Below are positions 58,725-64,000 of a DNA stretch of 64,000 nucleotides, piece by piece. Location of the stretch: NCBI RefSeq assembly GCF_030700245.1, contig NZ_JAUYZI010000001.1, positions 248,001-312,000 on the forward strand, in the 5' to 3' direction. Source of the DNA: Methylobacterium amylolyticum. Its GTDB lineage: Bacteria > Pseudomonadota > Alphaproteobacteria > Rhizobiales > Beijerinckiaceae. The number at the start of each line of letters is the position of its first letter. Positions within the stretch are counted from its first letter, which is position 1. The notes under the pieces were generated by a model. That model ran no database searches, was not told where the DNA came from, and saw nothing but the letters and a program-made list of their open reading frames with translations. The position numbers and the translations under genes were made by a program.

Positions 58725-59948
58725 ATGCGAGCGGACGAGGCCGCGGGCCTGCGCGTCCTGATCTACAGCCACGACACCTTCGGGCTCGGCCACCTGCGCC
58801 GCTCGCGGGCGATCGCCCACGCCGTGGTCGCGGCGCATCCGGGCGCGCGGGTGACGATCGTCTCGGGCTCGCCGGTGGTGGACCGCTACGCCTTCGCCGC
58901 GGGCGTGCGCACCGTCCGCCTGCCGCCGGTGACGAAGCTGCCGGACGGCGCCTACGCGAGCGGCGACCCGGCCGTGCCGCTGGCCGAGACGGTCGCCCGG
59001 CGCGCCGCCGCCGTCGCGCGGACCGCGGCGGCGTTCCGGCCGCACCTGTTCCTCGTCGACAAGGAGCCGGCGGGCTTCCACGGCGAGCTGCTGCCGACGC
59101 TGGAGGCGGAGAGCGCCCGCGGCACCCGCCTCGTGCTCGGCCTGCGCGACGTTCTCGACGACGCCGAACTCCTGGTGCCCGAGTGGGCGCGCAAGGGCGC
59201 GGCCGAGACGATGGACCGGTTCTACGACGAGATCTGGGTCTACGGGCTCGGCCGCATCCACGCGCCGCTCGCCGCGCTGCCGCTCGCCCCCGACGCGGCG
59301 GCCCGGCTCGCGGCCCGGCTGATTTACACCGGCTACCTCCGGCGGGACCTGCCCGCGGCGCGGCCCGGGCGCCGGGAGCCCGGGATCGCCGCCGGGCCGT
59401 TCCTGCTGGTCACGCCGGGCGGCGGCGGCGACGGCGCAGCGCTGATCGACTGGGTGATCGCCGCCTACGAGGCCGATCCCGGCATCCCCCTGCCCTGCCT
59501 GATCGCCTTCGGCCCGTTCCTCGACGAGGCCACACGGTCCGGCTTCGACGCCCGCATCGCCAGACGTCCGGAAAAAATCGCGGCGATCACCTTCGACAGC
59601 GAGATCGAGTTCCTGATGCGCAAGGCGGCGGGCGTCGTGGCGATGGGCGGCTATAACACCTTCTGCGAGATCCTGTCCTTCGATCGCCCGGCGGTGCTGG
59701 TGCCGCGCACGGAGCCCCGCCGCGAGCAGGCGATCCGCGCGCGCGCCGCCGAGCGGCTCGGCCTCGCGCGGGTGCTGATGGAGGCGGACGGGCGCGCGCC
59801 CGAGCGCATGGCCGCGGCCCTGCGCGCGCTGCCGGACCAGCCCGAGCCGTCGCGGGTGGTGGTGCCGGGCCTGCTCGATGGGCTCGGCGTCGTGGCCGCC
59901 CGGGTGCGCGCCCTCACCGCCCCCGTCCCGCGCCGGGCCTATTCATGA
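58725..59948 (+). CDS. MurG-like glycosyltransferase (COG4671 type)
   Basis: 407 residues. The N-terminal domain begins VLIYSHDTFGLGHLRRSRAIAHAVVAAHP, the glycine/histidine loop of GT-B enzymes like MurG. The C-terminal donor-binding domain has LLVTPGGGGDGAALIDWVI and MRKAAGVVAMGGYNTFCEIL, the GGYNT signature of nucleotide-sugar binding in this group, then RPAVLVPRTEPRREQAIRA. No membrane helix. Its stop overlaps the next start in ATGA. The acceptor is unknown. First gene of the plus-strand operon; 283 nt separate it from the PAP2-like gene. Confidence 0.85.
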   Translation: MRADEAAGLRVLIYSHDTFGLGHLRRSRAIAHAVVAAHPGARVTIVSGSPVVDRYAFAAGVRTVRLPPVTKLPDGAYASGDPAVPLAETVARRAAAVARTAAAFRPHLFLVDKEPAGFHGELLPTLEAESARGTRLVLGLRDVLDDAELLVPEWARKGAAETMDRFYDEIWVYGLGRIHAPLAALPLAPDAAARLAARLIYTGYLRRDLPAARPGRREPGIAAGPFLLVTPGGGGDGAALIDWVIAAYEADPGIPLPCLIAFGPFLDEATRSGFDARIARRPEKIAAITFDSEIEFLMRKAAGVVAMGGYNTFCEILSFDRPAVLVPRTEPRREQAIRARAAERLGLARVLMEADGRAPERMAAALRALPDQPEPSRVVVPGLLDGLGVVAARVRALTAPVPRRAYS

Positions 59949-61216
59949 GCGCGTCGCCCCGGATCGCGGTGGTGCTGAAGGGCTATCCGCGCCTGTCCGA
60001 GACCTTCATCGCCCAGGAACTGCTGGCGCTGGAGCGGCGCGGTCTGGCGCTGGAGATCTGGTCGCTGCGCCGCCCCACCGACGCGGCCCGCCACCCGATG
60101 CACGCCGCCATCCGCGCGCGGCCCGTCTACCTGCCGGAATACCTCTACCAGGAACCGCTGCGGGTGCTGCGCGGCCTCGCCGCCGCCCTGCGGCGGCCGC
60201 GCCTGCCCGCGCTGCTGGGACAGTTCGCCCGCGATCTCGCCCGCGACCCGTCCGCCTCGCGCCTGCGCCGGTTGGGGCAGGCCCTGGTGCTGGCCCGCGA
60301 GCTGCCGGACACGGTGACCCACCTGCACGTGCATTTCCTGCACACGCCGGGCAGCGTCGCCCGCTACGCCGGCCTCCTCACCGGCCGGGGCTGGAGCTTC
60401 TCCGCGCACGCCAAGGACATCTGGACGACGCCGGACTGGGAGCTGCGGGAGAAGCTCGCCGCGGCCGCCTGGGGGGTGACCTGCACCCGCGACGGGCTCG
60501 CGCGCCTGGACGCGCTGGGTCCCGGGCGCACGGCGCTCGCCTATCACGGCCTCGATCTGTCCCGCTTCCCGGCCCCGCCCCCGCCGCGACCGCCGCGGGA
60601 CGGGCGCGACCCGGGGGCGCCGCTGCGGCTCCTCTGCGTCGGACGCCTCGTCGCCAAGAAGGGCCACGACGACCTGCTCGACGCCCTCGCGGCCCTGCCG
60701 CCAGACCTGCACTGGCGCCTCGACCTGATCGGCGGCGGCGAGCTGCGCGCCGAACTCGAGGCGCGGGCGGGGGCGTCGGGGCTCGCCGGCAGGGTCACGT
60801 TCCGCGGGGCGCTGGCGCAGCCGGCGGTGGTGGCGGCGATGCGCGAGGCCGACCTGTTCGTGCTGCCGACGAAGCCCGCGCCGGGGGGCGACCGGGACGG
60901 CCTGCCCAACGTGCTGATGGAGGCCGCGAGCCAGGAGCTTCCGATCCTCGCCACCGCCTTCGCCGGCACGCCGGAATTCCTGGTCGACGGCGCGCACGGC
61001 GTGCTGGTCCCACCCGGCGAGTCCGCCGCCCTCGCCACGGCGCTGACCCGGCTCGCGGCCGAACCCGCCCTGCGCCGGCGCCTCGCCGCCGCCGCCCGTG
61101 CCTGTTTGGTGCGGGACTTCTCCGAGGCGGCCGGTATCGATCTCATCGCCGGCCGGCTCGCCGCCTCGGCGGGGCTGCCGATGCCCGAACGGGAGCGCAC
61201 CGCGTGCGCGTCCTGA
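59945..61216 (+). CDS. GT4-family glycosyltransferase
   Basis: 423 residues, GT-B fold of the GT4 family. IAVVLKGYPRLSETFIAQELLAL is the typical exopolysaccharide-glycosyltransferase N-terminus; the donor domain has RLLCVGRLVAKKGHDDLLDALAAL, LIGGGELRAELEARAGASGLAGRVTFRGAL and the E-x7-E motif in GLPNVLMEAASQELPILATAFAGTPEFLVDG. Overlaps its upstream neighbour by 4 nt and the downstream gene by 13 nt. Expected to add one sugar to a lipid-linked or small acceptor on the cytosolic face of the membrane. Confidence 0.92.
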   Translation: MSASPRIAVVLKGYPRLSETFIAQELLALERRGLALEIWSLRRPTDAARHPMHAAIRARPVYLPEYLYQEPLRVLRGLAAALRRPRLPALLGQFARDLARDPSASRLRRLGQALVLARELPDTVTHLHVHFLHTPGSVARYAGLLTGRGWSFSAHAKDIWTTPDWELREKLAAAAWGVTCTRDGLARLDALGPGRTALAYHGLDLSRFPAPPPPRPPRDGRDPGAPLRLLCVGRLVAKKGHDDLLDALAALPPDLHWRLDLIGGGELRAELEARAGASGLAGRVTFRGALAQPAVVAAMREADLFVLPTKPAPGGDRDGLPNVLMEAASQELPILATAFAGTPEFLVDGAHGVLVPPGESAALATALTRLAAEPALRRRLAAAARACLVRDFSEAAGIDLIAGRLAASAGLPMPERERTACAS

Positions 61217-63249: not shown

Positions 63250-64000
63250 CTCCGCTCCTGTCCATCCGCGACCTCGCGGTCGCGTTCCGCACCGAGTCCG
63301 GCCCGTTCGAGGCGTTGCACGGGCTTTCCCTCGACGTGGCCCGGGGCCGCACCCTGGCGCTGGTCGGCGAGTCGGGGTCGGGCAAATCGGTGACCGCGCA
63401 GGCGATCCTCCGGATCCTGCCGCGCTCCGCCGCGATCACGCGGGGACGGATCCTGTTTGCCGACGGGGACCGCGAGACCGACATCGCCCGCCTCCCCGCG
63501 GATGGGCCGGCGATGCAGGCGATCCGCGGTCAGCGCATCGCCATGATCTTCCAGGAGCCGATGACCTGCCTGTCGCCGCTGCACACGGTGGGCGACCAGA
63601 TCGGCGAGGCCCTGCGCGTCCACACCGGCGCCGACCGGAAGGAGGCGGATGCCCGCACGCAGGAGGCGCTGGCCCGGGTCGGTTTCCCCGACCCGAAGCG
63701 GGCGCTGAAGACCTACCCGTTCGAGCTGTCGGGGGGACTGCGCCAGCGGGCGATGATCGCCATGGCGCTGATCCTGAAGCCCGCCCTGCTGGTCGCCGAT
63801 GAGCCGACCACCGCCCTCGACGTGACCACCCAGGCCCAGATCCTCGCCCTGCTCGCCCGGCTCCAGGAGGAGACCGGCATGGCGATCCTGCTCATCACCC
63901 ACGATCTCGGGGTGGTGGCCAACATCGCCCACGACGTGGCGGTGCTCTACCGTGGGCGCCTCGTCGAGGCCGGGCCGAGGGACGTGGTGATGCGCGCGCC
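63246..64000 (+). CDS. Oligopeptide/dipeptide-type ABC transporter ATP-binding protein, 3' truncated
   Basis: ATPase of a peptide-type importer (Dpp/Opp/GsiA family); 251 residues visible, continuing past the window edge. Walker A is LVGESGSGKSVTAQAI, the Q-loop FQEPMTCLSPLHTVGDQIGEAL, the signature is LSGGLRQRAMIAMALILKP (LSGGL instead of LSGGQ), Walker B is LLVADEPTTALD and the H-loop LITHDLG. It starts at TTG 63246, overlapping the preceding stop in TTGA. It could be a DppD-like protein or the first half of a tandem ATPase; the part needed to decide lies outside. Confidence 0.9.
   Translation, partial: MTPLLSIRDLAVAFRTESGPFEALHGLSLDVARGRTLALVGESGSGKSVTAQAILRILPRSAAITRGRILFADGDRETDIARLPADGPAMQAIRGQRIAMIFQEPMTCLSPLHTVGDQIGEALRVHTGADRKEADARTQEALARVGFPDPKRALKTYPFELSGGLRQRAMIAMALILKPALLVADEPTTALDVTTQAQILALLARLQEETGMAILLITHDLGVVANIAHDVAVLYRGRLVEAGPRDVVMRA

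Follow-up and report, generated by a model that had tools for sequence, protein, structure and literature searches.

The window analysed here is a stretch of 64,000 nucleotides from the draft genome (6.57 Mb) of Methylobacterium amylolyticum, corresponding to positions 248001-312000 of contig C1 (G000:C1:248001-312000). Its end carries a row of overlapping forward-strand genes that encodes glycosyltransferases (GTs), a deacetylase-like domain, and the beginning of an ATP-binding cassette (ABC) importer. The row opens with GTa, a MurG-like glycosyltransferase (58725..59948, +) that matches PF04101, the C-terminal domain of GT28 enzymes, and continues with a GT4 glycosyltransferase (59945..61216, +) that contains GT4 Pfam domains and is EpsE-like, but scores under the EpsE cut-off. 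In the third gene (61204..63249, +), a GT28 transferase (residues 1-345) is fused to a domain of the carbohydrate esterase family 4 (CE4) type (~residues 420-660; 62380..63246, +, with its linker). The fourth gene (63246..64000, +; Pfam ABC_tran) encodes the first part of the double ATPase of the importer, is open at the window end, and continues to 65087. The overlaps of 4, 13, and 4 nt between these genes, described in the initial annotation, were confirmed on the open reading frames (ORFs) and their junction sequences. Its description of MurG-like domains in genes 1 and 3 flanking a GT4 enzyme also held. PF04101 scores 32.5 and 34.4 bits for genes 1 and 3, above the gathering score of 22, and the GTa query matches GT28 genes in other genomes at ~24-36% identity, so that genes 1 and 3 are related. 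Neither is MurG proper, with TIGR01133 scores of 19.5 and 26.2 bits against a curated cut-off of 250, and a sequence search of the PDB with GTa gave no match at E up to 0.01.

The CE4-type domain and the complete importer

The domain fused to the GT28 transferase contains the motifs WWRDDDA, HGxxH, PPWNR, DxxxW, and GLLTHH. In the window's protein it matches no Pfam family, falling short of PF01522, and among 25 aligned CE4 sequences searched against Pfam at E up to 0.1, PF01522 was found in 4 and DUF2334 in 11. Residues D52-D54, H104, H108, P156, P157, R160, D196, W200, L231, and H233 are invariant in that alignment (25/25), and we take them to be distributed over the five CE4 motifs, with an Asp-His-His metal site. 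Because a fold search with the entire fusion protein returned just GT structures among the 50 matches listed, the CE4 domain was modelled separately, and the resulting model has a confident CE4 fold. When the CE4 alignment was searched against PDB sequences, no match appeared at E up to 0.1. Since the Pfam profile misses this branch, membership in carbohydrate esterase family 4 is carried by the predicted fold and the motifs, which bear out the deacetylase-like domain of the initial annotation. GT28 and CE4 are two separate genes in many relatives, and the fusion also occurs in Microvirga and elsewhere.

Following the contig past position 64000, a check proposed in the initial annotation, yielded the SBP (substrate-binding protein) and two permeases. 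In this continuation (L009, where the window coordinate is the L009 coordinate + 61999), the row runs on along the forward strand with the end of the double ATPase, a gene for a protein of 294 amino acids (aa), the SBP, and the permeases, and the family-5 ABC importer of the row is complete. At full length the double ATPase has 613 aa and both ATP sites are canonical. The 294-aa protein (UNK294; 65084-65968, +) has no Pfam match and is named by some sources as a possible S-adenosylmethionine (SAM)-dependent methyltransferase. It is followed by the family-5 SBP (65965-68070, +, start uncertain; PF00496, 152.9 bits), permease 1 (68067-69083, +), which aligns with Escherichia coli YejB (27%), and permease 2 (69080-70258, +), which aligns with E. 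coli YejE (37%). All junctions after gene 4 overlap by 4 nt, as called, with that ahead of the SBP doubtful. The start of the SBP is uncertain because its first ~74 residues look repeat-derived: read from the ATG at 65965, the protein has a 74-residue repeat-like leader ahead of a Tat-like SRRALLAG, and the gene caller picked 66223. The leader (L009:3966-4188) matches four other places in the genome, in translated contigs C51, C60, C49, and C47, at 55-69%, and resembles a GC-rich interspersed repeat lodged between two genes.

The ATPase of the row and E. coli YejF share 43% identity over 553 aa, and the NCBIfam YejF model gives the 251-aa piece in the window 264.9 bits against a cut-off of 834, a score that covers the piece only. 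An ATPase on contig C55 is nearer to YejF (54%) and is the most Yej-like of the four other genome loci compared. BLASTP of the SBP against E. coli YejA gave just a 47-residue match (E 0.045). With an SBP that has no significant match to YejA and a better Yej candidate at C55, a canonical Yej importer was rejected. In the class sample of genomes described below, SBP copies of this kind score ~475-713 bits (one split copy, 298), versus at most 236 for the next family members. The best solved relative of the SBP is 5ipw (E 7.4e-63), followed by SPH1118 (E 1.1e-53), an alpha-galactoside-binding protein (E 3.3e-18), and a chitin-oligosaccharide-binding protein (E 2.7e-11), after which several solved relatives carry peptide- or nickel-binding names. 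The pectin-, galactoside-, and chitin-oligosaccharide-related names favour a sugar as the probable ligand, short of proof.

Conservation and co-inheritance of the module

A contig scan of genomes with the fused GT28-CE4 protein of the row confirmed at least 562 relatives, of which the best 80 loci were retained, a sample that favours close and fused forms and contains many cut contigs. Neighbour families were named from a Pfam or NCBIfam scan of one member per family, apart from one cyclase family named by reading alone. Near GT28-CE4, some GT4 enzyme is present in 74 of the 80 loci, the ATPase in 69, the permeases PermB and PermE in 68 and 66, the SBP in 66, and GTa in 65, with the full six core genes in 50. 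The same neighbourhoods contain an exporter-like protein (41/80), a cyclic nucleotide monophosphate (cNMP)-binding protein (35/80), the 294-aa protein (20/80), a UDP-glucose-dehydrogenase-like protein (19/80), a histidine phosphatase (19/80), class III cyclase-like genes (18/80), and a PF12692 methyltransferase (12/80). Fifteen of the cyclase-like genes fall in two families, in each of which the single member scanned matches a guanylate-cyclase Pfam model (one just under the cut-off), and three were assigned by eye. They lie at L037, L040, L043, L044, L046, L051, L055, L060, L069, L078, and other loci, and one kind bears a 2Fe-2S domain.

The usual order is GTa, GT4, second GT4, (phosphatase), GT28, CE4, ATPase, SBP, permease, permease, with the genes for the exporter-like and cNMP-binding proteins usually divergent and upstream of the row. 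The row and the Methylobacterium loci more closely related to it lack the second GT4 and possess the 294-aa protein. Conservation of the order in related genomes, another check named in the initial annotation, extends to distant Alphaproteobacteria, which retain the series from GTa through GT4, (second GT4), GT28, CE4, ATPase, and SBP to the two permeases. Relatives were found in Methylobacterium, Microvirga, Chelatococcus, Ancylobacter, Aureimonas, Azospirillum, Tistrella, and Silicibacter/Ruegeria, and also in some members of the Gammaproteobacteria (Motiliproteus, for example). The importer genes come after the GTs in Methylobacterium, Microvirga, and Azospirillum, sharing their strand and either overlapping or separated by short gaps, and in Ancylobacter they are on the opposite strand.

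To count co-occurrence we used 210 alphaproteobacterial genomes drawn independently of the module, with cut-offs placed at score gaps and four markers: GTa (found in 66 genomes), GT28-CE4 (68), the SBP (66), and the exporter-like protein (66). All four are present in 61 genomes, three in 5, two in 2, one in 3, and none in 139. For one genome (G227), the SBP copy near the GTs was used rather than the best-scoring copy. Where both members of a pair occur, they are no more than 15 kb apart in 53/65 genomes for GTa and GT28, 56/66 for the SBP and GT28, 43/63 for the exporter-like protein and GTa, and 41/64 for the exporter-like protein and GT28. Of 25 genomes from the genus of the window, an identical set of 18 contains both GT28-CE4 and the exporter-like gene (E below 1e-200), and the other seven contain neither. 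In a phylum sample of 299 genomes, searched with the Azospirillum CE4 query alone, 26 genomes matched, five of them outside the class and two of those weakly. The components of the module are thus co-inherited as a recurring unit across Alphaproteobacteria. Conserved order and co-occurrence in the class sample support the earlier suggestion of a single pathway whose product, or a precursor of it, is transported. Had the ATPase been part of a peptide importer with no relation to the row, that suggestion would have been undermined; this was not borne out, with an importer that is complete and travels with the glycosyltransferases and an SBP distinct from YejA.

Among 72,556 plasmid records, relatives of GTa at E up to 1e-20 number 274 with the Azospirillum query and 262 with the window query, chiefly from Rhizobium (143) and Sinorhizobium (80). 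Ten Escherichia plasmid records also match the Azospirillum query at this threshold. In six rhizobial stretches, from megaplasmids in Rhizobium and Sinorhizobium, the importer, GTa, GT4, GT28, the exporter-like protein, and the cNMP-binding protein occur in a single order on a single strand: R. etli CIAT 652 pA (L126), Shinella (L127), S. fredii NGR234 (L128), R. leguminosarum pRL11 (L129), S. meliloti (L130), and S. meliloti 1021 pSymB (L131). The third rhizobial transferase was considered as a second GT4, and comparison shows it to be GT28. A CE4 gene lies within the stretch in L127, L128, L130, and L131, and annotations place cyclase genes close by in L126, L129, and L130. The annotation of R. 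etli CIAT 652 calls GTa redA and GT4 redB (L126:13947-16436), and no paper explaining these names was found in the open-access literature. The two S. meliloti records contain matches split over two frames, for GT28 in strain RCAM1750 (L130 ~17454-18576) and for the exporter-like protein in strain 1021 (L131 ~21724-24382), which may be real changes or sequence errors.

The membrane part of the exporter-like protein resembles MsbA and BmrA. Its best NCBIfam match is MsbA, far under the cut-off, and in the Azospirillum copy this profile matches in two pieces ~260 residues apart. The ATPase part is enlarged and partly repeated, with two or three '..NLLFG' segments, two segments of the Azospirillum copy sharing 44% over 45 aa. 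In the window genome the gene (C115:136505-139198; L124:6506-9202) adjoins a cytochrome P450 gene. A second, distant paralog (36-38%) on contig C57 (L125:5912-8539) lies near an MBL-fold gene (L125:10138-11088) whose family is near the module in 9/80 loci, and distant paralogs are also present in genus members without the module.

A possible glycan cycle and its alternatives

From the observed genes, their order and co-inheritance, the motifs and fold of the CE4 domain, and the ATP sites of the importer, we infer a product, an exit route, and a ligand. Because glycosyltransferases, a NodB-like deacetylase, nucleotide-sugar dehydrogenases, and a probably sugar-type importer are co-inherited, one glycan may be both made and recaptured. 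We tentatively propose, at somewhat less than an even chance, that the module directs the cytosolic synthesis of a small glycan containing an amino sugar and that the cognate importer takes this glycan back up. In this process, GTa, GT4, and GT28 would work in succession on one acceptor, and the CE4 domain, fused to GT28 here, would de-N-acetylate the product inside the cytosol, in the way that NodB acts on Nod factor. The glycan would leave the cytosol helped by the co-inherited ABC-exporter-like protein, possibly under cyclic-nucleotide control where the cNMP-binding protein and class III cyclases adjoin the exporter-like gene. The SBP would then capture the glycan, or a form carrying something bound outside, and the importer would return it. 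A more elaborate version, in which a de-N-acetylated oligosaccharide is released through an ATPase-less, cyclic-nucleotide-gated exporter fold (CFTR-like) and recaptured loaded with metal or other cargo in a closed cycle, appears to us a long shot.

Several observations weigh against the proposed export and recapture of a glycan, beginning with the exporter-like protein itself. Its gene in the window genome is on contig 115, away from the row. In 42 sequences, comprising 39 of the 41 locus genes (over 800 aa) and three other copies, the ATPase part contains neither a Walker A motif (0/42) nor SGGQ/E (0/42). The aligned Walker A Lys is retained in 6/42, the copy at L045 has a chance Walker A match at residue 49, and the same motif scan finds both sites of the importer ATPase intact. 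The absence of these motifs makes ATP-driven export by this protein unlikely in most species seen, which weakens a simple export step. Of 120 further sequences, the best homologs of the Azospirillum copy, 2 have Walker A, 3 have SGGQ/E, and 7 have a Walker B-like DE, so a few members may be active ABC exporters. The protein is possibly a gated conduit or a regulator.

Distribution and ligand add to these objections. Partial marker sets occur in 10/210 genomes, with three markers in G065, G096, G111, G148, and G164, two in G104 and G177, and one in G084, G209, and G110; four of these genomes (G065, G104, G111, and G177) are less than 90% complete. Fisher tests on the co-occurrence are extreme, but the counts ignore phylogeny. 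Of sixteen relatives that belong to other families of the order, seven match GT28-CE4, in some cases weakly; five of these seven also match the exporter-like protein (E below 1e-100), and none of the remaining nine does. The importer of Rhodobacterales lies ~4 kb away or beyond the stretch, and the fetched stretches of R. etli (L126) and R. leguminosarum (L129) yielded no CE4 gene. The deposited name of 5ipw is putative oligopeptide-binding, and hence the ligand may be a peptide.

The alternatives differ in where the glycan goes and what the importer carries. The row could be a surface polysaccharide or glycolipid cluster with a cell-bound product, its importer taking up another substrate (peptides, or an oligosaccharide from plants or from the cell itself) with both under one cyclic-nucleotide programme. 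This explanation, which we consider unlikely but serious, draws on the cyclase-like and cNMP-binding genes at 18 and 35 of the 80 loci, the nucleotide-sugar dehydrogenases close to the cluster, the distant MsbA match of the exporter-like protein, and the opposite strand of the importer in Ancylobacter. However, the rows inspected, where no targeted search was made, showed neither a priming transferase nor Wzx/Wzy or a polymerase; the importer follows the GTs directly in Methylobacterium, Microvirga, and Azospirillum; and the SBP and GT28 are seldom apart in the 210 genomes. Alternatively, a foreign or cell-wall oligosaccharide could be imported, de-N-acetylated by the cytosolic CE4 domain, and re-glycosylated by the GTs. 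The deposited names of the SBP relatives (pectin, alpha-galactoside, and chitin oligosaccharide binding) would fit such salvage, as would muropeptide uptake by YejBEF-YepA in Rhizobiales, a precedent described in one report (PMC9790009). Yet three to four GTs with a phosphatase and methyltransferases look biosynthetic, no glycoside hydrolase or sugar kinase is among the annotated shared neighbour families (part of the families was scanned), and the ATPase at C55 is more Yej-like, all of which makes salvage improbable.

The initial annotation had also allowed, as a guess, a link of the row to carotenoid glycosylation, and suggested that a PAP2-like gene could supply a lipid-phosphate step. The row lies ~1.3 kb from a crtC-like ORF, and crtC/D/E are close to the module in 7 of the 80 loci, all Methylobacterium. 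In the other 73 loci these genes are unmatched in the fetched stretch (some stretches are cut), PAP2 is beside 0/80 loci, and six Methylobacterium loci, four of them with crtC, have a gene of another family directly upstream of GTa (GT87 by the single member scanned). On this missing conservation, glycosylation of a crtC/crtD product with a PAP2 lipid step was rejected, and we leave it next to no chance. By eye, the genes at 47881-57426 of the window read as bchZ, bchY, bchX, bchC, crtF, crtE, crtD, and crtC. Only the crtD-like ORF gave scan matches, an ORF read from 56221 gave none, and the crtC-like coding part seems to begin near 56563.

Related systems and significance

In Nod-factor synthesis, the GT2 enzyme NodC and the cytosolic CE4 de-N-acetylase NodB act with the ABC transporter NodIJ. 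The module follows a similar logic, with cytosolic GTs, a cytosolic CE4 domain, a dedicated ABC transporter, and a small diffusible glycan as its predicted product. Unlike the Nod system, it uses GT28 and GT4 rather than GT2 enzymes, has its deacetylase fused to a GT here, includes a complete importer and an exporter-like protein with a degenerate ATPase, and is not confined to symbionts. No NodC-type GT2 or NodA acyltransferase was noticed among the genes read, where no targeted search was made. HfsH, the holdfast deacetylase, and ArnD are CE4 enzymes that act during glycan assembly. The module shares a CE4 enzyme with these systems (ArnD structure 8t0j), which have other transferases and no importer.

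Among importers, the YejABEF and YejBEF-YepA systems come near in the double ATPase, which resembles YejF, and differ from the module, whose SBP has no significant match to YejA and whose importer is tied to glycosyltransferases. The nearest SBP with a described sugar ligand is SPH1118 of Sphingomonas sp. A1, whose system serves uptake of pectin and chemotaxis to it according to two reports (PMC9314435, PMC7055323). In S. meliloti, the msbA2 operon SMb21188-SMb21191 is described in two papers (PMC3687685, PMC12239276) as combining GTs and an MsbA-like protein for an unknown polysaccharide, a pairing that the module also has. The exporter-like gene is not msbA2: msbA2 lies at ~938 kb of pSymB and the module at ~823.7-845.0 kb in the 1021 record, and because these positions differ the two are different loci. 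Two other papers give SMb20813 as an msbA homolog (PMC10945364) and mocD/E/F as SMb20818-20820 (PMC11387232), and the absence of mocD/E/F from the annotated genes of L130 speaks against SMb20813 being the exporter-like gene. Searches of the open-access literature, as far as its texts were accessible and with older rhizobium papers thinly covered, turned up no account of the module.

Roughly three in ten of the alphaproteobacterial genomes sampled (210) hold all four markers, and the tractable models S. meliloti and R. leguminosarum have most of the set. If the row proves to be merely a surface-glycan cluster, a widespread orphan importer gains a partner and a ready genetic test. If the proposed export and recapture of a glycan is true, it would reveal an overlooked class of secreted and recaptured bacterial sugars, with exit through a fold that lacks a working ATPase, and the less probable cargo-loaded closed cycle would make this a class of sugar-based carriers or signals common to methylobacteria, rhizobia, and marine bacteria.

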